Assembly: GCA_019359505.1 (NCBI GenBank)
Contig: JAHHHD010000027.1
Span: 1 to 64,000 of the forward strand
DNA length: 64,000 bases
Direction of reading: 5' to 3'
From: Drouetiella hepatica Uher 2000/2452
GTDB lineage: Bacteria > Cyanobacteriota > Cyanobacteriia > Elainellales > Elainellaceae
Shown: positions 46,118-58,422 of the stretch, in pieces
How the letters are laid out: every line of letters starts with the position of its first letter
Position numbering within the stretch: the first letter of the stretch is position 1
Notes under the pieces: model-generated
What the model was told of the DNA's origin: nothing
The model's input: only the letters and a program-made list of their open reading frames with translations
Database searches by the model: none
Made by a program: the position numbers and the translations under genes

Positions 46118-47209
46118 ATGAGACAGCCTTTCGTTAGCCTCATTATTGATAATTACAACTACGGTCGATTTTTGAAGCAGGCGATCGACTCCTGCCTCAA
46201 TCAAAGCTATCCAAATGTTGAAGTGATTGTGGTTGACGACGGCTCAACTGACGACTCTCACGACATTATCCATAGCTATGGCGATCGCATCGTACCCGTC
46301 TTTAAGGCAAACGGCGGACAGGCTTCGGCATTCAACGCAGGATTTTTAGCCAGCCAGAGCGAGTTGATTGTCTTTGTCGATGCAGATGATTACTTGTCTC
46401 ATGAGGCAGTAGAGCAAGTTGTTTCGGTTTGGAAGCCAGGTATTGCACAGGTGCAGTATCGTCTGGAGTTAGTCGATGAAGCAGGACAGTTTATTGATCT
46501 GTTTCCCACGGCGAAGACGAAGTTTGATAGCGGTGACGTATATCCAATTCTCCTGGCAAGAGGGCGGCAACAAACTACCGTGACTAGCGGCAATGCTTTG
46601 AGTCGGGAGGCATTGAGTCAAATCATGCCCATCCCCGAAGCTGAATTTCGCATTTCTGCGGATGGATACCTGATGACGCTGATTCCTTTTTACGGCAAAG
46701 TTGCTTCGATCGAGCAGCCTCTAGGAGCCTATCGCATTCACGGCAATAGCTGGTGGACCCGTACAAAAGGCACCAATCAGGCTGAGAAATTTCGCAAGTC
46801 GATCGCCCATGATTTTCACCGATACGATTTTTTACGCGCCAGGGCGAACGAGTTGAGCTACGCGATCGCTCCCGACTTAGGGTTTCGAGACTACAACCAT
46901 CTCACCGCTCGGATTGCGTCTCTTCGGATGGAACCCGATCAGCATCCTGTTGCTTCTGATTCATTAACAGACCTAGGACTCAAAGGCTGGCGATCGGTTT
47001 TGAGGTATGCAAATGTGGGCTGGAAAAGAAAGCTAGTTTTAAGCGGCTGGTTCCTATGGGTAGGCTTTATGCCTCGCTATCTGGGCACCTTGGCAGTCAG
47101 TTGGCTGATGGTTCCTAGCTCTCGCCCTGCCGGAGTCGATCGTCTGTTTAAGCAAGTGCGATCGCTGTCCACCTTCTCGATGAAACCCCTTCCCAAAAAA
47201 GCTGCGTAA
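46118..47209 (+). CDS. GT2-family glycosyltransferase
   Basis: 363 residues. The GT-A core has VSLIIDNYNYGRFLKQAIDS near 6-26, VIVVDDGSTDDSHDII near 38-54, and the metal-binding DxD-like FVDADDYL near 86-94. The C-terminal 100 residues include a membrane-proximal hydrophobic stretch (LVLSGWFLWVGFM near 307-319). It is the only plus-strand gene of the glycan island and lies tail-to-tail with the GT39-like gene, so it has its own promoter. Sugar specificity is unknown. Confidence 0.9.
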   Translation: MRQPFVSLIIDNYNYGRFLKQAIDSCLNQSYPNVEVIVVDDGSTDDSHDIIHSYGDRIVPVFKANGGQASAFNAGFLASQSELIVFVDADDYLSHEAVEQVVSVWKPGIAQVQYRLELVDEAGQFIDLFPTAKTKFDSGDVYPILLARGRQQTTVTSGNALSREALSQIMPIPEAEFRISADGYLMTLIPFYGKVASIEQPLGAYRIHGNSWWTRTKGTNQAEKFRKSIAHDFHRYDFLRARANELSYAIAPDLGFRDYNHLTARIASLRMEPDQHPVASDSLTDLGLKGWRSVLRYANVGWKRKLVLSGWFLWVGFMPRYLGTLAVSWLMVPSSRPAGVDRLFKQVRSLSTFSMKPLPKKAA

Positions 47210-47214
47210 AAACA

Positions 47215-48819
47215 TTATTCGCCTTGAAGCAAGCTAGGAAAATTGCGCTTTTGACTCAGAGACTTAACGTTAGAGCCAAAAAAATTCTGACTGTTCTCAA
47301 CAGAGTAGTATTGAGCCACAAAGTCATCTAGCACTTGGCGACTGGGCGCGTAGTAGGTAGAGTCAGGCGAGGATGAGCCATTTGGGTCAGTCTCTTCAGT
47401 GGTTACTAGCCAGATCGAACGGTAGTCTCCCGGCGTACGTGACAGAGCAGCCAAAACATCTTGCTGATTCTGTAAGACGAGATCGCGCCAGCTAAAAGCT
47501 TTAAAGTCTTCTGGCTTGGGCAATGCCATCAGACGATTAACACCCTTATAGTAATGCTCAAGAGTCATCGCATCTTCTGGATTAAAGACTAAGATAGGTT
47601 GGTTAGGCTGCTCGTGAGCCATAAGATATTCCGCTACTCGAATGTAATCCCCTCCCTTTGCCAAAGGTGAATACTGAGCACCTAGGGAAATCAAGTAAAG
47701 GAAGATTAGCGTTGAGCAAAATATAGGTAAAGCTCTTTTTCTGCTAGCGTATTTGACCAGCGATAAGGCAGAAAATAGAACGAGTAGAGTAGGGAAAAAT
47801 TGAATGCTCGTGTGCCTGAAGCTAATGGTGTCTGTTGCAAAAAATACACAGAAATAAAGCGAGAAAAGCGCGATCGCCAATAGCCAAACTGCCAGATGAT
47901 TCTTGTTGATCGATCGATAGTTTTTAACAATAGAAGCAATCAATCCAGCAAAAATCACTAATCGAGTAACTCTCCAAAAACTCAAGCTAGATTCAGTGAG
48001 TGTAGCAGGAACGATATATCGTAAGAGGCCAGAGAAAGAGCCTTTCAGAGCATCAATTAGCGGAGCGGAACGTTCACCCTCAATTGGATTATCAGATAGA
48101 ACTCCCATTTGCTGAATGACGATAATAGCCATGGGCAAAAATAAAGCGCCAGCAATCACCATATCAAGCAGGTAGCAGCGCAATGCACGAGTGCGTTTTA
48201 ATCCCAGCAAGACAAAACCGTTTGCAATTAGTAGAAATGCTAAAAAATAGTGCGTATAAATAGAGATTATAGCGATCGCCACGTAGAGTTTTCTGGCTAG
48301 GGGACGATGCTGATCACTAAGATATCCATCGAAGAATAGAATGAGCAATAAAGCTGCAAATAGAGTAGAAAGAGCATATAACCTAATTTCTACCGCTGCT
48401 GCAATAGTGTAGGGACTAAACGCCACGATCGCAGCCAACCAGTTGGGATTTAGCTCTTCAAAAAATCGTTTAGAGATTAGCGCAGACAAATAAATAGTTA
48501 GGGCAATACAAATAATCGATAGAAGCCTAGCAAAAAATATGGATTCATTGACGTTACGCCACAGCGTTAGCAAGACAAAATAAGGAGGCGATTGTTCTTC
48601 AAAATAGATTGCCTGCGTAATTGCATATCCAATGTCTTTACTAGAAGTATTTAATGAATAGGCTTCATCGACCCAAATATTAAGGCTTGCTGCCAAAGGG
48701 ACTGTTACACAGAGATTGAGAACAATCAAAAATAAATTAGTGAGCCGCCAATTATTCTGTAAACTTTCCCAGAATGGGAGCTTTCGCCAATCCGAATAAA
48801 AATTTTGCAATACTTTCAT
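47215..48819 (-). CDS. GT39/PMT-like membrane glycosyltransferase
   Basis: 534 residues from the ATG at 48819; a TTG at 48831 is weaker. About ten to eleven transmembrane helices are predicted. The first periplasmic loop carries WVDEAYSLNTSS, the DE motif of GT-C enzymes, and SPPYFVLLTLW near 85. The soluble C-terminal part (about 380-534) has FNPEDAMTLEHYY. Such enzymes move sugars from polyprenyl phosphate to lipid or protein outside the membrane. A matching GT2 donor synthase is encoded in the same cluster (57160-58422). Confidence 0.85.
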   Translation of the reverse strand: MKVLQNFYSDWRKLPFWESLQNNWRLTNLFLIVLNLCVTVPLAASLNIWVDEAYSLNTSSKDIGYAITQAIYFEEQSPPYFVLLTLWRNVNESIFFARLLSIICIALTIYLSALISKRFFEELNPNWLAAIVAFSPYTIAAAVEIRLYALSTLFAALLLILFFDGYLSDQHRPLARKLYVAIAIISIYTHYFLAFLLIANGFVLLGLKRTRALRCYLLDMVIAGALFLPMAIIVIQQMGVLSDNPIEGERSAPLIDALKGSFSGLLRYIVPATLTESSLSFWRVTRLVIFAGLIASIVKNYRSINKNHLAVWLLAIALFSLYFCVFFATDTISFRHTSIQFFPTLLVLFSALSLVKYASRKRALPIFCSTLIFLYLISLGAQYSPLAKGGDYIRVAEYLMAHEQPNQPILVFNPEDAMTLEHYYKGVNRLMALPKPEDFKAFSWRDLVLQNQQDVLAALSRTPGDYRSIWLVTTEETDPNGSSSPDSTYYAPSRQVLDDFVAQYYSVENSQNFFGSNVKSLSQKRNFPSLLQGE

Positions 48820-48994
48820 TTTAATCAGCAACTCTAGTCATTGCATTTCTAAGTTTTCCCGAATTTAATCTAATAATTAACATTGACCTAGTAATACTGT
48901 CAAAGCAACACAATATCTGAAGGATAATTCCCTCAGATATTATGCTGCTCAATCAGGCATATTCGATGCTAATTAATCAGGAAAACTAATGCTG

Positions 48995-50356
48995 CTAGTG
49001 CTGGAGTGCCCCTACAATGCCGCGAACCTTCTTCAAGGTCTGCCAGTAAATATCCTCCATCAGAATATGATCGAACTCGCCGTTGCGCCCAATGCTATAC
49101 AGCCCCTCAACCCCTGTAGAACGCTCAAACTTCTGGCGCTCTGCCTCATACTCGTTCAGAAAAACAGGATAGGCGATCGGAGTTCGTAACACTCGACATC
49201 CTAAATATCTTTGATTTGCATCAGGAACGATCGGCTTGAGATGCTCAAGGCAATACTGACCCAGCCGTTCTTCTTCCATCTGCCAAATTTCGTCCCCAAC
49301 ATTGCATCCAATATCAACGGTGATTAATGTTTTGTCTGATGGAGCCAGCCAAGGCATTGAGAGCGGCGTTTCAGTCAAGCGAAAGAAAGGAAACTCGTTC
49401 TCAGGTGTCCAAAGGACGGTATCCGGCAAAAGTCCGCGTCCTTGAAACCGCATGTTGACAAACACCATCGGACGAAAGCGAAAGCGCGAAAGCGGCTGCA
49501 AAACATTTGTGCCTTTTACGAGCTTAGGCAAAATGTTACAAGGCGCAGTGCTAATCACTGCCGACACCGCCTGTTCACGCCCCTTGACACGGATTGCTTG
49601 TACTCGTCCAGAATCTACTAGAATTTCCTCTACAGGAGACTCTAGCTGAATAGCATTCTCCAACTCATCGGCGAGTTTCTGGCACAGTAGCCCTAGCCCC
49701 CCATCTGGGTAGACATGCCAAACGGAAGGATTTTCAGGCATCTCATGGCTATAGCCACAGGCAACCGCACGTCCCGTTAAACGGCTAGCAAGCTTGAGCG
49801 AAAGCGTCTGCCCAATGCTGTTTTGCAGCTTGTTTCCAACGGATGCCGACAAATCAGAAGCCGCTGCACCCGACCAAGCTTCTAACAGAGGTAGAGCGAC
49901 CTCGTCCGCAAGTTCTCTGCCATAGCTAGCCCGAAACCACTCCGCAGCAGAGCTATTTTTGCGCTTCTCATCGACAGGCTGAATGCGGCTAGCCAGACCG
50001 CCTGCCAAAAATCGAGGCACCTGCAAAAGTCCGAAAGGATAGCTATAGGTACGTCCCCGCAATAACACTGTCTCGCCATAATATTTGACAGTCCGGCAAT
50101 GTGCCCCAATGCCAGTCGCGGCGGCTAAGCGATTGGTAAGAAAGTGTGCGCCAAAGTCGTAGGTGAAGCCATCTTGGTCATGAAAGCTTGTAGCCAGACC
50201 CGCAATTTTCTGACCTGCCTCATAGAGAACAACCGGAACGTTCTGTCTGCGGAGAAAGTATGCGGCAGTAAGACCTGCTAATCCTGCACCGACGATCGCC
50301 ACAGGTTTTCTAGAGTCAAATTCTATAGTCTCGGATTCTCTGATATCACTTTGCAT
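48995..50356 (-). CDS. FAD-dependent amine-oxidase-like protein (first of two)
   Basis: 453 residues. The dinucleotide motif VAIVGAGLAGLTAAYFLRR is followed by YEAGQKIAGLATSF and FDFGAH-like FTYDFGAHFLT, as in protoporphyrinogen oxidase-like, squalene-associated and UDP-galactopyranose mutase-like flavoproteins. The C-terminal GLYSIGRNGEF plus ILMEDIYWQTLK closes the FAD site. The precise reaction is unknown. Placement in a glycan operon suggests a sugar or polyprenyl substrate. The distance to the methyltransferase gene is 65 bp. Confidence 0.85.
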   Translation of the reverse strand: MQSDIRESETIEFDSRKPVAIVGAGLAGLTAAYFLRRQNVPVVLYEAGQKIAGLATSFHDQDGFTYDFGAHFLTNRLAAATGIGAHCRTVKYYGETVLLRGRTYSYPFGLLQVPRFLAGGLASRIQPVDEKRKNSSAAEWFRASYGRELADEVALPLLEAWSGAAASDLSASVGNKLQNSIGQTLSLKLASRLTGRAVACGYSHEMPENPSVWHVYPDGGLGLLCQKLADELENAIQLESPVEEILVDSGRVQAIRVKGREQAVSAVISTAPCNILPKLVKGTNVLQPLSRFRFRPMVFVNMRFQGRGLLPDTVLWTPENEFPFFRLTETPLSMPWLAPSDKTLITVDIGCNVGDEIWQMEEERLGQYCLEHLKPIVPDANQRYLGCRVLRTPIAYPVFLNEYEAERQKFERSTGVEGLYSIGRNGEFDHILMEDIYWQTLKKVRGIVGALQH

Positions 50357-50421
50357 GATTACACCTCGTTAACAGTTTTTGACACAGTACTTTCGACGCG
50401 TGATCTCAACCCGTATTTTGA

Positions 50422-51423
50422 TCACAAGGGTCTTCGCAGCGTTGCCCGTATCAGTGCCCCTCTGCCCATCCACTGATGGAGCATATCGAACAGGGTGAAA
50501 ATCCCCAGAGAAAAGGTGGAGTTGAGACTAAAGCGCTCGACAAGCCATTTGGGAGCCTGCCAATCCACCAGCGTGTTGCGAATAGAGTAAACCCAATTCA
50601 CAGGGCTAACTACTGTAGTCAGCGTATCCACCTCCATCAGCGTTTTTTGAGCCAAGGCGCGAATGGTATTGGGATTGAAAAGATTCCAGTGTCTGGGAAA
50701 GTGATACCCGCCCCAATGCCGGGTTTTGAAAAGCTGGAAGTCAAGAGTATCAGTGTTATCTGTCACGATGATGACTTTACCGCCCGGTTTGAGGAGCGAT
50801 CGCACCGTTGTCAATACAGCAGATGGGTCATCCACATGCTCAATGGTGGCAATCATAAACGCCAAGTCATAGCTGGCTTGCGGTAGAACAAAATCTTCGA
50901 CAAGATCTTGCACAATGCCGTGATGGATTTTGAGTCCTTTTCGAGTGCCTGCCTCGACTGCGCGATCGCTGGGATCAACGCCTTCAAGCTGCCAGCTCGG
51001 CTGACCAAACTTTTTGAGTAGATTCAGGTGAAATCCGTCACCACAGCCGACATCAATAATTCGAGCATCTTTTCCCAGCCCCTTGCAGCAAGACAGAAGG
51101 CGACGAGCTTCTAGTTTTTGCCGAACTTGATAAACAAACCCATACCGCTCCGCAGAAAACTCGAAGGCGTGATAGTCCGGCGGATAAATGCGGGATAGAT
51201 CTTGCATCGCAGGGCGTGGGTTCGTGTAAATTAACCCACAGTTGCGACAACGCACCGCTAAGAATGTATCTGGGCTGGTACGATACTCGAAATCCTCTCC
51301 CACTCCCACTGGCTCAACATCATTTAAATCGCAGATGCAGCAATTCACAGAGACGAGAGAGAGCGGTGCATTTGCGCCCGCACGGCAGGGTGCGCCAAGC
51401 TTAGTTATGGGTTGTTTAACCAT
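50422..51423 (-). CDS. Class I SAM-dependent methyltransferase
   Basis: 333 residues. A zinc-ribbon-like N-terminus has CCICDLNDVEP and CRNCGLIYTNPRP (Cys pairs near 28-31 and 58-61). The methyltransferase core has ARIIDVGCGDGFHLNLLKKFG near 118 (motif I), DPSDRAVE, and FMIATIEHVDDPSAVL with LLKPGGKVIIVTDN. The arrangement matches ribbon-containing methyltransferases of sugar operons that methylate nucleotide or glycan sugars. Its substrate is unknown. Confidence 0.88.
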   Translation of the reverse strand: MVKQPITKLGAPCRAGANAPLSLVSVNCCICDLNDVEPVGVGEDFEYRTSPDTFLAVRCRNCGLIYTNPRPAMQDLSRIYPPDYHAFEFSAERYGFVYQVRQKLEARRLLSCCKGLGKDARIIDVGCGDGFHLNLLKKFGQPSWQLEGVDPSDRAVEAGTRKGLKIHHGIVQDLVEDFVLPQASYDLAFMIATIEHVDDPSAVLTTVRSLLKPGGKVIIVTDNTDTLDFQLFKTRHWGGYHFPRHWNLFNPNTIRALAQKTLMEVDTLTTVVSPVNWVYSIRNTLVDWQAPKWLVERFSLNSTFSLGIFTLFDMLHQWMGRGALIRATLRRPL

Positions 51424-51514
51424 TCGAATTTCCTTCTAAATCCTAAAACTAGAGAACGCCGAGAACCACTGCGCTTAAGTACAAAGAATTAAGCTAGAAC
51501 TTAAATTAGAAGCC

Positions 51515-52525
51515 TTAGACTTGCGAATGGACACTAAACTCTGCGCTTAAAGGATTCACTTTCGGTTCAACGAGCGGCAGATTGTAGGTACTAGAAACGA
51601 GTTCAGCATGTTGTCCTACAGGAACCACCGTGAACTGATTGGAGAGCATCTTGAGAGCTTTACCGAGAACCGCTAGCTTTTTAGTGTGGGATAAGCTCAT
51701 GCCAGGAAAAAACGCCAGCTCCGGCACATCTTCAGCTCCTAGAAAATCCAGAGGATGAAGCAGCAACGAGGGCGGTGTTTTCGTCAGTTTACAGAGCCAA
51801 AGTGCAAATCGGAAATACAGCAGCGCTGCGGTGGACGAAAACACGCTAATGAATAGCACATAGCTAAAATGAATAGGAACTTTGAAGATCGGCATCGTCG
51901 TAACGGGAATTTCCGTTAGCTGGTCAGACTTTAGGCTCCAGCGATAGGGCTTGAGGGGCTGAAAGCCTTCTTTAAAACCGCCGAATAGCGCCTTCCGCTT
52001 TTCTCGCTCTTCGGGGGTAAGATTGCTGGTCATGAAGTAGTAAGCCCGTGCTAGCGGTCCCAAATAGGTAGGAAACGTAGAGGCATCATATTTGTAGCCG
52101 CGCTTTGCCAGCACTCGCAGGACAGAGGATGAAAAGCTGTATCCGGGACCTCGGAATCCGACGGGATGCTGTCCGGTGACTCGCTTCAGATGACCCTCTG
52201 CCCTCGCGATCTCCTGCTCAATTTCCTCCTCGCTATAGAGGTGCAGCCAGGACTCATGATGGAAAGAGTGATTGCCGATTTCGTGACCTGCTGCCGATAT
52301 AGAGGCGATCGCTTCCTGATTTTTTTCCAAAGCTGCATCCTGACCGACAATGAAGAAGGTAATGGTCAGATTGAGGTCTTTCAAAAAGTCCAAGGCGCGG
52401 GGAATGACGACATTTAAGTAGGAGGGAAACTCCTCCCAACCTGGATCGCCATGAATTTTCATATACGACCACTGATTGTCTAGATCGAGAGAAAGACTGG
52501 CGATCGGTTTTTTCTTAAACTTCAT
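51515..52525 (-). CDS. Polysaccharide deacetylase (NodB-type)
   Basis: 336 residues. Motif 1 is SLSLDLDNQW near 10-19 (two aspartates), motif 2 is HEIGNHSFHHESW near 80 (HxxxH), and GFRGPGYSFSS near 119-129 is motif 3. These support a metal-dependent de-N-acetylase. A hydrophobic stretch (VLFISVFSSTAALLYFRFALWL, shown as region about 222-243) may attach it to a membrane. It starts 5 bp after the stop of the second FAD gene, so they are likely coupled. Confidence 0.9.
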   Translation of the reverse strand: MKFKKKPIASLSLDLDNQWSYMKIHGDPGWEEFPSYLNVVIPRALDFLKDLNLTITFFIVGQDAALEKNQEAIASISAAGHEIGNHSFHHESWLHLYSEEEIEQEIARAEGHLKRVTGQHPVGFRGPGYSFSSSVLRVLAKRGYKYDASTFPTYLGPLARAYYFMTSNLTPEEREKRKALFGGFKEGFQPLKPYRWSLKSDQLTEIPVTTMPIFKVPIHFSYVLFISVFSSTAALLYFRFALWLCKLTKTPPSLLLHPLDFLGAEDVPELAFFPGMSLSHTKKLAVLGKALKMLSNQFTVVPVGQHAELVSSTYNLPLVEPKVNPLSAEFSVHSQV

Positions 52526-52530
52526 GAGGT

Positions 52531-53895
52531 TTAGCGGGTAGATACGGCAAGGGAAGACTTGGATAAGGTCAGCAGTTCGGCAGCAGCACTCTCGGCAAGC
52601 TGCACCGTTTCGTTGACGTTCAGCGTACCGTTGAGAATATGCGCTGAGTTAATAATGTGAACGCCTGGAATGGAGGTGTGCATCGGCGGCAAATGCTCAG
52701 AATAGTTGAGCGTAGAAATCGCCAGCACATATTTCACCCGCGAAACTTTGAAGCTGAGGACATCACTACGATCGAAGTGAGAATACATCCGTTCGAGGGC
52801 GCTGACAAACTTTTCCTGTAGTTCTGAGTCAGACAGCGAGAATGCTGGATCGTCTGGGGCAATATATTTAGGTAAATAAACCAGAGTATTGCCGTGAAAA
52901 TAGTCGGGTTCCACCAGAGTGGTCATCTCAATCACTCCGGTAAACGGCACCCAGGTATCGGTGATATTGGTAACGTAGTAGGGCGAGAGCGGCTGTTTGA
53001 GCAGGAGCGAAGCGCAGATGATGCCTTGGTACTGAATATTTTTGAGGCGATCGCGTTCTTCTGAATCAAGCTGCGGACAGACTTGGGCGGCAATTGGGGC
53101 GGCGGTCGTGAGGATGACGCGATCGAAGCTTTCCCAGCCTGCCGTTTGAAGTTTGACCTGCCCCTCCGCAGATTGCACCTGCTGGACAACAGCCCCCAGT
53201 CGAATCTCGACTCCTTCCTCAGTCAGAACTTCCGCAAAGCGTTCCAATAGCCGCGCGTAGCCACCCGGCAGATAGCCAAACATTTCTTTCTTCAATCCCG
53301 TCCGTCTAGCCGCATAGAGGCGAGCGATGATTGCCCAAATAAACGCGGCTGAGGCTTTCTTGTAATTCTCACCCAGCTTTGCTCGCAGCAACGGCAGCCA
53401 AAACTTTTGAAAAGTATGCTTACCCGACCAGCGGCTGAGCCAATCCACTACCGAGATTTTTTCGAGTTGCTTCCAGTCTCTGATTTTGGAGGCGTAAAGG
53501 ATGGTAAACCCCAGCCGAATTTTGTCAATCAGACCCAGCGGCGGGAAGCGAAGAAATTCGATCGCGTTAGAAACTGAATATAAGTTGCCATCCATATAGC
53601 AACCCGTCTTAGTTTCCACCCACTGCATATCTTGCTCTAGCCTCAGCTCTTTCAGCAAGTTGCGTAGGCAGAGATCAGACAGCAAGGTGACATGGTAGTG
53701 GCGATCCCAGGTGATATCCCCCAGCATCCAGGCGCTTGCCAACCCGCCTAGCTCTGGAGAGGCTTCGAATAACGTCACCTGTTTCCCGGCTTGGGCAAGA
53801 CGATGAGCCAAGGTCATGCCCAGAATGCCGCCCCCGACGATCGCATAACGTTCTTCACCCTGTGCCGACGATGAGCGAGATGATGAAATAACCAT
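52531..53895 (-). CDS. FAD-dependent amine-oxidase-like protein (second of two)
   Basis: 454 residues from the ATG at 53895; a TTG at 53934 gives an unlikely longer form. The N-terminal YAIVGGGILGMTLAHRLAQ and ASPELGGLASAW form the FAD site, followed by WDRHYHVTL. The C-terminal GVHIINSAHILNGTLNVNETVQLA closes the fold. It differs from the first flavoprotein in length and motifs, so they are not simple duplicates. It precedes the deacetylase by 5 bp. Reaction unknown. Confidence 0.85.
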   Translation of the reverse strand: MVISSSRSSSAQGEERYAIVGGGILGMTLAHRLAQAGKQVTLFEASPELGGLASAWMLGDITWDRHYHVTLLSDLCLRNLLKELRLEQDMQWVETKTGCYMDGNLYSVSNAIEFLRFPPLGLIDKIRLGFTILYASKIRDWKQLEKISVVDWLSRWSGKHTFQKFWLPLLRAKLGENYKKASAAFIWAIIARLYAARRTGLKKEMFGYLPGGYARLLERFAEVLTEEGVEIRLGAVVQQVQSAEGQVKLQTAGWESFDRVILTTAAPIAAQVCPQLDSEERDRLKNIQYQGIICASLLLKQPLSPYYVTNITDTWVPFTGVIEMTTLVEPDYFHGNTLVYLPKYIAPDDPAFSLSDSELQEKFVSALERMYSHFDRSDVLSFKVSRVKYVLAISTLNYSEHLPPMHTSIPGVHIINSAHILNGTLNVNETVQLAESAAAELLTLSKSSLAVSTR

Positions 53896-53920
53896 AGGTT
53901 TGTGAGACGCACAAGTTAAA

Positions 53921-53960
53921 CAAGAGCTGGACAAGAACTGGACAAGAACTGGACAAGACC
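53921..53960. repeat. 11-bp tandem repeats
   Basis: caagagctgga, caagaactgga, caagaactgga and a partial fourth occur at 53921-53960, in the gap between the acyltransferase and flavoprotein genes. This is the same 11-bp period as the array at 11157-11211. Confidence 0.7.
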
Positions 53961-54002
53961 AGAAAGAGCGAAGCAGAGACGCGATCGCGCCTCTGCTTCA
54001 AG

Positions 54003-54626
54003 CTAAATCGGAGGCGTAAGCTCAATCACTTCGCGGTTTTTGACGGCATACTTCAAGTCGCAGGCAGGACAGGCTATCTGCTCCTCAAACGTCTCAACCT
54101 CAGGGAACCGCATCAGCAATTGCCCACAGCGGCAGACACAACCGATCGACTTAGCCGGATGCCCGATCGCCAAGTGAAAGTCAGGGACAGATTTGGTGAT
54201 TAGCGAACCCATGCCTACCATGGCAAATCGACCGATGGACAAGTCGTTGCCGATCGTGCAGCCTGCGCCAATGGTTGCGCCTTCCCGTACTAGAGTCGGT
54301 AAGGTATGCTCGTCTGGGTCAGAAGGGCGGAGTTGCTTAAGATCGACGGTCGTAGCTCTGGGAAAGCGATCGTTGGTAAAGATCGTCCCGGCGCTAATCA
54401 TCACCCCATCTTCGATCGTCACAGCATTGCAGACATAGACGAAAGCATTAATCTTGACTCGATCGCCGATCGCTACGCCGTAAGCGATATAAGTCTTCTC
54501 GCCAATGATGCACTGTTCGCCAATGCGGGCAGAGTGACGAATGTGAACGCTATCCCAAACCGATGTACCTGACCCGATCGCCACATTATCCTCGACGATT
54601 GCCGTGGGGTGAATGCGGGCGTTCAC
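54003..54626 (-). CDS. Left-handed beta-helix acyltransferase with C-terminal zinc ribbon
   Basis: 207 residues starting at GTG (54626). Hexapeptide repeats (HPTAIVEDNVAIGSGTSVW and later ATIGAGCTIGNDLSIGRFAMVGMGS) form a left-handed beta helix typical of WbpD/WlbB-like N-acetyltransferases. The C-terminal 45 residues contain CVCRCGQ and CPACDLKY, a ribbon-like CxC...CxxC zinc-binding pattern not usual for this family. It overlaps the Gfo/Idh stop codon by one base. In 3-acetamido sugar pathways this enzyme acetylates the 3-amino group. Confidence 0.87.
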   Translation of the reverse strand: MNARIHPTAIVEDNVAIGSGTSVWDSVHIRHSARIGEQCIIGEKTYIAYGVAIGDRVKINAFVYVCNAVTIEDGVMISAGTIFTNDRFPRATTVDLKQLRPSDPDEHTLPTLVREGATIGAGCTIGNDLSIGRFAMVGMGSLITKSVPDFHLAIGHPAKSIGCVCRCGQLLMRFPEVETFEEQIACPACDLKYAVKNREVIELTPPI

Positions 54627-55675
54627 TAGGCTTTCCCTCCCACAGCCATCTTGGTTGTAGACTGAGCACCGTTTTGAGCTAGGGCGATCGGTACCCAGTT
54701 ATTTTGTTTGAGGGCAGCATATGCTGCCTCAATGACCTCAACTGAAGCCACGCCGTCCTCAGCAGTAATCACCAGCGATTCCTGGTTGCGGATGGCTTTA
54801 GCAAAGTTGTCGATTTGGCTACGGAAAGACTGCACCTTGTTATAGCCATTGCCAAAGACAATCCAGTCCTGACTGGTTGCCTGACGATATTTGGACTCCT
54901 TCCAGCCCACCGAAATCGTCCCCTGAGAGCCGTAGATGCGGATGTAATAATCCAGCTCTTTGTTGATGCTCCAAGACAAATCGATATTGCCGACAACGCC
55001 GCTCATACTCTTGACAAAGATACGCACCGTATCTTCAACCGATAGCCCTTGAATTCGCCTGCCCTCTACGACCTGAACTTCAGCGATCGGCCCCAAAAAG
55101 TAGCGCATGATGTCTACGGAGTGTGTGCCGTTGTCAATTAGCACACCGCCACCGCTGATGGCAGCATTGGAGTTCCAGCGCGTAGACATATCGACGCGAG
55201 CCGTGAAGGCGTTCTCAAACAAAACGATATCGCCCAAGATCCCAGATGCCACAATGCTCTTTGCTTTCACTACATCTTCAGCAAAGCGGAACTTAGAAGC
55301 CATGGTCAAAATCACCCCATGCTCATCGGCAGCCGCCTTCATTTCTCTGGCGCTTTTTGCCGTGATGCTCATTGGCTTCTCGCAAAGAACGTGAATCTTT
55401 CGCTCTAGCAAATGAACACAGATCTCAGGATGGGTGGAAGGCGGTGTACAAACAATCACAGCATCCAGTTGAGCGCCCTCTAACATGCTCTGATAGGAAT
55501 CAAAGCTTTGGCATTTAGCTTTTTCTGCCATGGCTTTTGCCGCTTCAGTTCGGACATCAGCAACGGCTACAAGTTGGGCAGTGGTGGAAGTTTCAAAGGC
55601 TTGGGCATAGGCTTGGGCAATGCCACCTGCGCCGATCAGCCCAAATCTAACTTTTGAATTAGCGTAATCTGACAT
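54626..55675 (-). CDS. Gfo/Idh/MocA-family oxidoreductase (WlbA/WbpB-like)
   Basis: 349 residues from the ATG at 55675; the upstream frame to 55849 overlaps the aminotransferase gene and looks non-coding. The Rossmann motif FGLIGAGGIAQAYAQAF is near 10, AVIVCTPPSTHPEI near 70 and LCEKPMSITAKSAREM near 97-112 (the conserved EKP). The family oxidises a sugar at C3 using NAD. With the aminotransferase and acyltransferase next to it, it fits the 3-keto intermediate step of 3-acetamido sugar synthesis. Confidence 0.9.
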   Translation of the reverse strand: MSDYANSKVRFGLIGAGGIAQAYAQAFETSTTAQLVAVADVRTEAAKAMAEKAKCQSFDSYQSMLEGAQLDAVIVCTPPSTHPEICVHLLERKIHVLCEKPMSITAKSAREMKAAADEHGVILTMASKFRFAEDVVKAKSIVASGILGDIVLFENAFTARVDMSTRWNSNAAISGGGVLIDNGTHSVDIMRYFLGPIAEVQVVEGRRIQGLSVEDTVRIFVKSMSGVVGNIDLSWSINKELDYYIRIYGSQGTISVGWKESKYRQATSQDWIVFGNGYNKVQSFRSQIDNFAKAIRNQESLVITAEDGVASVEVIEAAYAALKQNNWVPIALAQNGAQSTTKMAVGGKA

Positions 55676-55772
55676 GACGATTTTCCTAAAAACTGAGGAT
55701 GGATGAATTAGGGAACCACGACTTGGCAGCAGAATTTGAAAGAAGTTTTTTGCGAGAGAAACTCTATTGAAG

Positions 55773-57020
55773 CTAAGCCTGAAGCTGAGCGATCGCCCCC
55801 TTAATGGCATCCGCAATATAGTCAATATGCTCGTCGGTGTAAGCCTCATTCCAGGGCAGTACCAAGACTTTTTCTAAGCCTTCAAAGGTACCAGGAAAGA
55901 GGGCAGGCGAGTAGTCCACAGCTTCGGGCTGTGCCAGAGTAAAGGGGAAGCGGGAATTGCCAAAGGTGCGCTGTTTTTCAAAGATTTCGCATTGGAAAGC
56001 GGGCTTTTGAATATAGCGAGGCGCAGAGAAGATGCCTTTCTCTTCTTTCAGCTTCTTCGCTAGACCCACGGCTCCATCTTTGATAACGCTGCCATCCACT
56101 CGTAGGCAGTATTTCCAATAGACATGCACGTTATTTGAATCAATGTGTGGAGTCTCAATGCCAGGAATATCTTGCAGCTTTTCTGTTAGCTTCACAGCAG
56201 CTATCCAACGTCGTTCCACCACGCCTTCCAGTTTGCCTAACTGAGCTAGCGCCACTGCACCCGTTAGTTCATTCATGCGATAGTTCAGCGCAATGAAGTA
56301 GTGATCGGGCTTAGGATCGCCATAGCCAAAAGCTTTGTTAATGTACAAGAAAAGCCGACGTGCCAGCGCATCATCGTTCGTAGCCACAATGCCGCCTTCG
56401 CCTGTGGTAATATGCTTGCCCTGCTGAAGACTAAAACAACCGATCGCCCCGATCGCTCCCACATACTGATCGCCATGTCTTGCCAGAAACGCCTGAGCCG
56501 TATCTTCAATCACCGGAATGTTCCGTGAGTTGGCAAGCGCCATAATCTCTGTCATATTACAGGGATTACCAAATAGATGCGTAACAATGATGGCTTTTGT
56601 GCGCTCTGTGATACATTTAGCGATCGTTTCTGCGGTCACGTTCCAAGTGCACGGATCAACATCTGCAAATCGCGGAATTGCACCCTGATAGAGGATAGGG
56701 GTCAGGGCACCCATATCGGTAATGGATGTAGTGATAATTTCGTCACCCGGTTCAGGGTCAATAGCGGCGATTGCTGTGTGTACCGCAGCAGAACCGGAAG
56801 TGCAGGCATAGGCATATTTCACGCCCAGCAGGTCAGCAAACTTTTGCTCCAGCGCTTTGACAAAAGTGCCTTTGGTACTGGTCAGAGTACCGCTACGGAT
56901 TGCTTCAGTGACAAGGGCAATTTCTTCTGCGCCTAGAGTCCGCCCTGAAGTATCCTGATCAGATGGCAATTTCAGCAGGGCTTGAGAAACTGCTTGAGCA
57001 GCGGAAAGGGTGTTGACCAT
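55773..57020 (-). CDS. DegT/DnrJ/EryC1/StrS-family sugar aminotransferase
   Basis: 415 residues, start ATG at 57020 with SD AGGAG. PLP-fold signs: YAYACTSGSAAVHTAIAA near 74-91, DEIITTSITDMGALTPILY near 97, VIEDTAQAFLA near 174, and GCFSLQQGKHITTGEGG near 197 with the lysine of the PLP imine in QQGKH. This is the family that transaminates 3-keto or 4-keto nucleotide sugars. It lies upstream of the Gfo/Idh gene in the same operon. Confidence 0.92.
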   Translation of the reverse strand: MVNTLSAAQAVSQALLKLPSDQDTSGRTLGAEEIALVTEAIRSGTLTSTKGTFVKALEQKFADLLGVKYAYACTSGSAAVHTAIAAIDPEPGDEIITTSITDMGALTPILYQGAIPRFADVDPCTWNVTAETIAKCITERTKAIIVTHLFGNPCNMTEIMALANSRNIPVIEDTAQAFLARHGDQYVGAIGAIGCFSLQQGKHITTGEGGIVATNDDALARRLFLYINKAFGYGDPKPDHYFIALNYRMNELTGAVALAQLGKLEGVVERRWIAAVKLTEKLQDIPGIETPHIDSNNVHVYWKYCLRVDGSVIKDGAVGLAKKLKEEKGIFSAPRYIQKPAFQCEIFEKQRTFGNSRFPFTLAQPEAVDYSPALFPGTFEGLEKVLVLPWNEAYTDEHIDYIADAIKGAIAQLQA

Positions 57021-57159
57021 GCGTTTATTTCTCCTGATTAGATGAGTTAGATAGTGATTACAATGAGTTGAATACTCAACAAGTGACCTAGCTCAAGCGT
57101 TTTAATGAAAACTGAGAGCTATTTTTTCCCAACAGTGAGAAAAGTTGAAAGGAGGCTGT

Positions 57160-58422
57160 CTATCTATCTAGCTTTTGTTCTGACCGTGAAGCTTTGTAGA
57201 CAGCACTACCCAGATAAAAAACCTCTTCAAAATACCGTTTACTTTGCATAGACAGTATGCCCAAGCTAAAGAGTTGGATAGCGAGCATCAGAAACATACC
57301 GCCTAAGATAAAGGTATGAGGAGCCTGTTGAAAGGCAGCTGCAACGGCTTCAGTGGGATCAACAACAGGTTGAATCATCTGTTGATAGTTTGTCCAAACA
57401 TGAACGAATGCCCAAAACCCAGAGAAGGCGGCGAGTAAAAAAAATAGAAAGCTGGGAATAATAAAAAACATCACGGGTCTAAAAACAAACCCAAAGTAAA
57501 AAACATCCCAGGTATGACGCAAAATTTTCATACTCGACTTGCGTCTGTTTGCCTTGGGACGATCTTGGCTTACCTGCCGACTTACCTGTTGAGTTCTCCA
57601 GTTCAAATGAGCAGGAATTTCCTCAATCTTGGCTCCCAAGACTAGACCCTTGTGGATTACTTCAGGATTGATCTCCATGCCATAAGACTTGAGGTTGAGA
57701 CTGCGAACAAAACTCGTCCGATAGGCACGCACCATGCCAGTTAATGTTGAAACATTTCGGCGAGCCGCAGTTGAGAGGAAGCGATTAGCCCAGACACTCA
57801 GCGCTAAACGAAGCCAGGGTACATTAGAGACTTGACCCCCTGTCATGTAGGGGGAAGTCAAGACAACGTCTGCTCCACCCTCCGTTATTTTCGCCAAGAG
57901 CATTGCAATGTGCTCAGGGGCATAGCTTAGGTCAATATCTAATGTGACGATGAATTCTCCTTGAGCCTGTTCAAAGCCCGTTCTTAAGGCTTGCCCTAAG
58001 CCAGAATTCACCAAGTGATGAATGACTCGGACATTGGCATGGCTTTGGGCAAAGCTATCGGCAATTTCACCTGTATTATCTTTACTGCCGTCATTGACCA
58101 GAATTATTTCCCAGCGATATTCATGCAGATGCTCTAGGTACTGATAGAGAATTCCTAGATTTCGTTCAAGAATTGCGGCCTCATTATACGCTGGGGCAAC
58201 CACAGAAATGAACGATCGCCTGTCAATCTGCTCTGTCGAACCAGGCTGATATAAATCAGGTTGATGTAGCGGCGCGGTCATCAATCTGACTTCTTCATCA
58301 AATCCCTGATTTTTAAGTCCCTGTTTTCTGGGAACCTGAGCGTCCGCGCCCCCATTTGGCTCTCCACCAAGTGGGGACTGCCCCGCCCACTGACCCGACC
58401 ATTGAGTAGAATCTGAAACCAT
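57160..58422 (-). CDS. GT2 glycosyltransferase, polyprenyl-phosphate-sugar synthase type
   Basis: 420 residues. The N-terminal 45 residues are disordered. The GT-A core has SVVAPAYNEAAILERNLGIL near 69, IILVNDGSKDNTGEIADSF near 105, and FIVTLDIDLSYAPEHIAML (the DxD) near 155. Two to three hydrophobic segments at the C-terminus (about 305-340 and 375-400) anchor it, as in dolichol-phosphate mannose synthases. It probably makes the polyprenyl-phosphate sugar used by the GT39-like enzyme of the cluster. It is the first gene of the minus-strand operon. Confidence 0.88.
   Translation of the reverse strand: MVSDSTQWSGQWAGQSPLGGEPNGGADAQVPRKQGLKNQGFDEEVRLMTAPLHQPDLYQPGSTEQIDRRSFISVVAPAYNEAAILERNLGILYQYLEHLHEYRWEIILVNDGSKDNTGEIADSFAQSHANVRVIHHLVNSGLGQALRTGFEQAQGEFIVTLDIDLSYAPEHIAMLLAKITEGGADVVLTSPYMTGGQVSNVPWLRLALSVWANRFLSTAARRNVSTLTGMVRAYRTSFVRSLNLKSYGMEINPEVIHKGLVLGAKIEEIPAHLNWRTQQVSRQVSQDRPKANRRKSSMKILRHTWDVFYFGFVFRPVMFFIIPSFLFFLLAAFSGFWAFVHVWTNYQQMIQPVVDPTEAVAAAFQQAPHTFILGGMFLMLAIQLFSLGILSMQSKRYFEEVFYLGSAVYKASRSEQKLDR

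Follow-up and report, generated by a model that had tools for sequence, protein, structure and literature searches.

What would a bacterium make with an island that joins the enzymes for a 3-acetamido sugar to a deacetylase and two distinct flavoproteins? The question is raised by a 64,000-nucleotide stretch of the cyanobacterium Drouetiella hepatica Uher 2000/2452 (GenBank assembly GCA_019359505.1, contig JAHHHD010000027.1, positions 1 to 64,000; here called the window, to which all positions refer), in which such an island lies at 46118-58422. All gene assignments below were made from sequence. The reading favored here, with a probability of roughly 55%, is that the island encodes an Arn-like route by which a surface molecule would receive an amino sugar on the outer side of the inner membrane, with the flavoprotein FAD_B as an extra enzyme. 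This would point to Arn-like lipid-linked amino-sugar transfer in both cyanobacteria and planctomycetes.

Judged from their families, the Gfo/Idh protein (Gfo) would oxidize C3 of UDP-GlcNAc, the DegT aminotransferase would aminate the oxidized carbon, and the acyltransferase LbH would N-acetylate the amine, yielding UDP-GlcNAc3NAc. A family 2 glycosyltransferase (GT2) would place this sugar on polyprenyl phosphate, and the deacetylase NodB, in which active-site residues are conserved, may then N-deacetylate the lipid-linked sugar, much as ArnD removes a formyl and NaxD an acetyl group. FAD_B, to judge from its tree, would carry out a flavin-dependent step on the sugar rather than on the lipid tail. 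The product would be flipped by a further protein and transferred outside by a GT-C-like protein, while the second flavoprotein, FAD_A, and a methyltransferase may provide an additional modification in a few strains.

An earlier note on this DNA had described ten open reading frames (ORFs) here, and these lie where it placed them, nine of them on the minus strand and the tenth on the plus. Most of its family assignments also hold (two GT2 proteins, DegT, Gfo/Idh, LbH, two flavoproteins, NodB and a methyltransferase); its GT39-like membrane protein is weak, with a PMT_2 match below cut-off. Loci other than the window's are numbered L054 onward.

57160 to 58422, minus strand: GT2, polyprenyl-phosphate-sugar synthase-like (Glycos_transf_2; two C-terminal hydrophobic segments by hydropathy)
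55773 to 57020, minus strand: DegT aminotransferase (DegT family, 280.8 bits; pyridoxal phosphate-lysine motif)
54626 to 55675, minus strand: Gfo/Idh 3-dehydrogenase-like protein (family models; ORF opens at 55849, likely start 55675)
54003 to 54626, minus strand: LbH (hexapeptide) N-acetyltransferase, WlbB/WbpD-like (closest solved structure 3mqg, 7.9e-35)
52531 to 53934, minus strand: FAD_B, PRK07233-family flavoprotein of amine-oxidase/PPO type (NF005560, 488.4 bits)
51515 to 52525, minus strand: NodB/CE4 deacetylase, proposed N-deacetylase of a lipid-linked sugar (Polysacc_deac_1, 79.5 bits; conserved residues)
50422 to 51423, minus strand: class I methyltransferase, accessory (family model; 74-75% identical relatives in L055 and L056)
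48995 to 50356, minus strand: FAD_A, second amine-oxidase/PPO-type flavoprotein, accessory (Amino_oxidase-type models)
47215 to 48831, minus strand: GT-C-like membrane protein (weak PMT_2; about nine hydrophobic segments by hydropathy)
46118 to 47209, plus strand: a further GT2, probably a neighbor outside the unit (no real relative in 17 other loci)

A conserved core of six genes

The island was compared with 17 other loci, ten cyanobacterial and seven planctomycete. Of 36 genomes in the window's order, 11 have NodB, and six of these 11 (the window, L054 and L056-L059) keep the order GT2-DegT-Gfo-LbH-FAD_B-NodB, with a methyltransferase gene between FAD_B and NodB in L057-L059 and one extra ORF there in L058. 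Two loci (L060 and L061) have GT2-FAD_B'-NodB, the trio of DegT, Gfo and LbH being absent from the locus. Three are uninformative for the trio: L055 and L063 break off next to FAD_B, and the 4.6 kb L062 contig carries NodB by itself. FAD_B is present in ten of the 36, always alongside NodB, and the two genes occupy the same six of 21 genera, counts that come from related genomes and hence are not independent; the one of the 11 NodB genomes that lacks FAD_B (G390) is a 68% complete assembly. The SelD gene found near the window's island also lies close to the island in four other loci (L056, L058, L059 and L063). In one of these (L063:23-8777) FAD_B, NodB and SelD are each broken across several frames, probably through assembly errors, since the matching contig (L009) has a coverage of only 2.4.

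The test set beforehand in the earlier note was co-occurrence of all nine minus-strand genes, and what recurs is smaller: the six-gene core is kept together, FAD_A with the methyltransferase varies, as does the GT-C-like gene, and the plus-strand GT2 is not shared. Relatives of the methyltransferase and close relatives of FAD_A occur only in L055 and L056 among the 17 loci, adjoining each time. The plus-strand GT2 is probably outside the unit, as its best match in these loci has 27% identity over 28% of its length.

In the wider phylum, where scores were given only to the best few candidates from a first look, NodB was found in six of 373 genomes. Five of the six have a FAD_B of at least 40% identity: the window's own, with the genes side by side, and four from a different family (code f6), with the genes unlinked, on separate contigs or far apart on the chromosome. 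A further genome (G376) carries FAD_B and may or may not belong to the 373 searched for NodB. FAD_A was found in one other genome, at 28% identity, in a phylum sample of 292.

Among planctomycetes NodB is present in six of 294 genomes, and these together with L082, from a related-locus search, make up the seven loci read. L081 and L082 have DegT-Gfo-LbH-FAD_B-NodB in this order, with identities to the window of 72, 61-63, 72-73, 61-63 and 52-58%, respectively. L079 has all five genes in a changed order, L080 has Gfo-LbH-FAD_B-NodB at a contig end, and L076 has FAD_B and NodB on a contig that ends before the expected position of the trio. L081 and L082 are headed by a fusion of NodB, DUF3473 and GT2 domains, the domains having been read in the L082 protein (L082:180-2063), and such a fusion also occurs in L079 along with a 2-epimerase gene. 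That one gene order comes back in several genomes and in another phylum makes the arrangement more than chance.

A defense-system reading was not adopted; in a defense library the flavoproteins matched best to the desaturase-named C3a186 and the methyltransferase to mad2, with no match for NodB or the GT-C-like protein.

Probable enzymes for a lipid-linked amino sugar

Judged by family alone, the 3-dehydrogenase, aminotransferase and acetyltransferase trio of the Wbp/Wlb pathways is present. The DegT stretch that contains the pyridoxal phosphate lysine is SLQQGKHITTGEGG, and the best of its solved relatives is 7b0m (7.7e-53), with WbpE also present (2.4e-38). Gfo has an EKP motif and scores higher with an inositol 2-dehydrogenase model than with a UDP-GlcNAc 3-dehydrogenase model (147 and 138 bits, both far under cut-off); its closest solved structure is 3q2i, which we take to be WlbA. 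Its listed ORF opens upstream inside DegT (55675-55849), so that the two overlap; the true start is likely Met59 at 55675, as several orthologues are shorter. For LbH the closest solved structure is a lipopolysaccharide-biosynthesis acetyltransferase (3mqg), presumably WlbB-type. The roles given here to individual motifs in DegT, Gfo, the flavoproteins and NodB are likewise those we assume them to have. GT2, which leads the block in six trio loci and in two loci without the trio, resembles DPM synthase (5mlz) first and then ArnC (9hwj, 1.4e-15); its best NCBIfam model is ArnC, far below cut-off (74.5 bits against 529). A 3-acetamido-sugar trio with lipid-linked transfer, as the earlier note had it, is supported by LbH and 3mqg, by Gfo and 3q2i, by the likeness of GT2 to DPM synthase and ArnC, and by the conserved order of the trio.

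NodB had been left without an assigned step, and a plausible position for it does exist, namely that of ArnD or NaxD. It carries the conserved metal and catalytic residues of CE4/NodB enzymes (D14, D16, H86, H90, R125 and H257, invariant across 16 aligned NodB rows), while the ArnD equivalog model gives only 22.3 bits against a cut-off of 382. No NodB match was found on plasmids at E 1e-30.

Both flavoproteins contain GxGxxG. FAD_B clearly exceeds the cut-off of PRK07233 (252 bits), a family labelled 'hypothetical protein' in NCBIfam, and beyond its own family, squalene, carotenoid and porphyrin enzymes are among its top models and solved relatives. A ring-contracting mutase identity (UGM) was at first hinted at by the FAD_A motif YDFGAHFLTNR, which resembles that of UGM, and by a match to 4dsg over residues 19-78. 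It was dropped because hhalign aligned ten UGM rows to N-terminal columns only (77 for FAD_B and 94 for FAD_A) and seven PPO rows over nearly the full length (423 and 377 columns). For the same reason, oxidation or desaturation is the likelier chemistry for both proteins. Structure models from five rows (A4) and two rows (A5) were unusable, with pLDDT values of 41.9 and 36.0.

More distant relatives of the flavoproteins were also seen. Plasmids gave eight distant FAD_B matches at 27-31% identity (three viewed with annotation and one without), and a pattern scan of viral contigs gave none. Distant PRK07233 members adjoin UbiA, DprE1-like, DprE2-like and epimerase genes in one cyanobacterium of small genome size and in three plasmids: L069:5422-10846 reads UbiA, SDR, DprE1-like FAD oxidase, epimerase and PRK07233 flavoprotein, and similar runs with an added GtrA-family gene occur on Burkholderia, Agrobacterium and Rhodobacteraceae plasmids (L094-L096). 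A GT2 adjoins a PRK07233 relative in L068, and in L067 no UbiA/DprE-type or GT2 gene was recognized around one. In L065 and L066, FAD_B' has a GT2 on one side and two small membrane proteins on the other; the L065 pair matches the ArnE and ArnF models only (42-51 bits, with cut-offs at 92 and 99). L064:3103-17034 holds what looks like a full Wbp-like set (UDP-HexNAc-type dehydrogenase, Gfo, LbH, DegT and 2-epimerase) together with FAD_B' and two small membrane proteins. On an Aureimonas plasmid (L098:14980-16410) there is a FAD_A relative of 58% identity, and the annotation shows no genes for glycan biosynthesis close to it. As PRK07233 relatives adjoin polyprenyl-phosphate-sugar genes in several cyanobacteria, in planctomycete loci and in all three of the plasmid loci viewed with annotation, the role of this flavoprotein family becomes directly testable.

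Which sugar, and what FAD_B acts on

The trio might instead act on UDP-GlcNAcA, as in the Wbp/Wlb pathways, and supply an ordinary polysaccharide with a 2,3-diacetamido uronic acid. LbH and Gfo are closest to the Wbp/Wlb-like structures 3mqg and 3q2i, and a gene of the UDP-GlcNAc 2-epimerase family, for a WbpI-type step, is present in addition in three planctomycete loci (L079, L081 and L082). The Wbp route, as outlined in part of PMC10622841, starts with a UDP-GlcNAc 6-dehydrogenase, and the earlier note had remarked that the UDP-sugar 6-dehydrogenase to be expected for one version is missing from the window. In the genome as a whole, 99.78% complete, three nucleotide-sugar dehydrogenases were found at E 1e-20, all of which look UDP-glucose-type: their best equivalog is TuaD, a UDP-glucose dehydrogenase (534, 528 and 275 bits, under its cut-off of 700), as against 185, 184 and 107 bits with the better UDP-ManNAc dehydrogenase model. 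In the L064 dehydrogenase this ranking is reversed (267 bits for ManNAc, 252 for TviB and 142 for TuaD), and the window's trio is only 35% (DegT), 22% (Gfo) and 39% (LbH) identical to the set beside it. No UDP-GlcNAc 6-dehydrogenase was therefore recognized among the three, and a neutral donor with a free 6-hydroxyl, UDP-GlcNAc3NAc, is likelier than the uronic acid, which we regard as unlikely.

It is also conceivable, with about as little probability, that FAD_B saturates or desaturates the polyprenyl carrier. Its resemblance to squalene, carotenoid and porphyrin enzymes would fit such a role, as would the UbiA, DprE1-like and DprE2-like neighbors of distant PRK07233 members. A lipid-directed enzyme, however, need not vary with the trio, yet FAD_B does so and NodB does not. 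In the FAD_B tree (21 rows) the cyanobacterial and planctomycete trio loci fall on one side of a branch (ten rows, 95/93, including L055 and L076, both cut before the expected trio position), and six rows without this trio form a separate clade (100/98). The NodB tree, whose 21 rows come only partly from the loci used for FAD_B, unites the 14 cyanobacterial rows (98/98), and forcing 11 trio-side rows together, with L079 excluded, is rejected (p-AU 5.9e-80). Mean identity is 71% for FAD_B, 74% for NodB and 66% for GT2 among trio loci, and 43, 69 and 59%, respectively, between five trio loci and two without the trio. FAD_B thus probably acts on the sugar. A specific and more speculative version is that NodB frees an amine and FAD_B then oxidizes this amine or the adjacent carbon on the polyprenyl-phosphate sugar, giving a keto- or imino-sugar donor; we know of no lipid-linked sugar pathway to which this flavin chemistry has been assigned, and the PRK07233 family would gain a function if it were true. 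Another doubtful account, somewhat less probable than the two alternatives above, is a loose glycan island in which genes of several pathways share a changeable site near selD on the chromosome. The stretch from NodB to selD does differ strongly in gene content; against this account stand the core of six genes, its reappearance in another phylum, and the co-occurrence of NodB and FAD_B even where unlinked, in four genomes.

Several observations weigh against the Arn-like route with FAD_B acting on the trio's sugar. L079 has the trio, yet its FAD_B joins the trio-less clade, on a branch of length 2.64. FAD_B' in L064 lies in one gene run with its different DegT/LbH/Gfo set, so that 'trio-less', a status judged at the locus and not across the rest of those genomes, means only the lack of this trio's orthologues within the locus. 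GT2 does not clearly track the trio (the small GT2 tree is unresolving), and its donor may therefore not be the trio product. NodB occurs without close FAD_B in G167, with DegT, Gfo and LbH but no FAD_B in the 9.2 kb contig of L078, and beside a PMT-type protein with neither trio nor FAD_B in the 19.9 kb of L077. The GT-C-like gene is weakly assigned (PMT_2 20.1 bits against a cut-off of 26.1, with neither an NCBIfam model nor, at E values up to 1, a solved structure matching it) and has relatives in just three of the 17 loci (42% in L060, 37% in L059 and 31% in L081). Finally, a flippase-like LPG_synthase_TM protein comes after NodB in four loci (L057-L060), and a homologue was found in one of six genomes searched and not in the window's own, in which ArnE and ArnF were not searched.

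Comparison with known systems

No published description of this gene set was recognized in searches of the open PMC literature, and several known systems share parts of it. The Actinoplanes wps-3 exopolysaccharide cluster also brings together a deacetylase, DegT and an FAD enzyme; in the account available from PMC13390465, however, it is a Wzx/Wzy-type cluster whose FAD enzyme belongs to the PheA/TfdB monooxygenase family. The UbiA-DprE1-DprE2-type polyprenyl-phosphate-pentose runs share distant PRK07233 flavoproteins with the island, but the known systems, in the relevant portion of PMC11127046, make a pentose from phosphoribosyl pyrophosphate on the lipid, and no NodB was listed or matched in the four runs viewed. 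With the Wbp/Wlb 2,3-diacetamido pathway (order as given in part of PMC10622841) the island shares Gfo, DegT and LbH; it differs in having no UDP-GlcNAc 6-dehydrogenase candidate among the genome's three and in coupling the trio to a polyprenyl-phosphate-type GT2 and a deacetylase.

Three-component extracytoplasmic glycosylation (Gtr and the pentofuranose systems described in sections of PMC11127046) follows a similar logic of polyprenyl-phosphate-sugar synthase, flippase and GT-C transferase. The island itself holds GT2 and the weak GT-C candidate, with a flippase-like gene in the four relatives' loci instead. It would differ further in the proposed modification of its donor while lipid-linked, by NodB and probably a flavoprotein.

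The closest parallel is the Arn system for L-Ara4N, in which, according to parts of PMC12650200 and PMC7835334, an acylated amino-sugar donor is loaded by an ArnC-type enzyme, deacylated on the lipid, flipped and transferred by a GT-C protein. NaxD offers a precedent for deacetylation, being required before galactosamine addition to lipid A (PMC10215926, in part). The island differs from Arn in having a 3-acetamido trio rather than ArnA, an acetyl rather than a formyl group, an extra flavoprotein and no flippase gene. A family scan of the ten island ORFs found no ArnA formyltransferase/decarboxylase, an acetyltransferase being present instead, and no ArnE or ArnF, for which the genome itself was not searched. 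Membership of the Arn family is not claimed, given the lack of ArnA in the island and the low score of NodB with the ArnD model. What the two share is an aminotransferase, an N-acylated donor, an ArnC-like GT2, a NodB-fold deacylase and a GT-C-like protein, and, in another cyanobacterial family, an ArnE/F-like pair beside a FAD_B relative.

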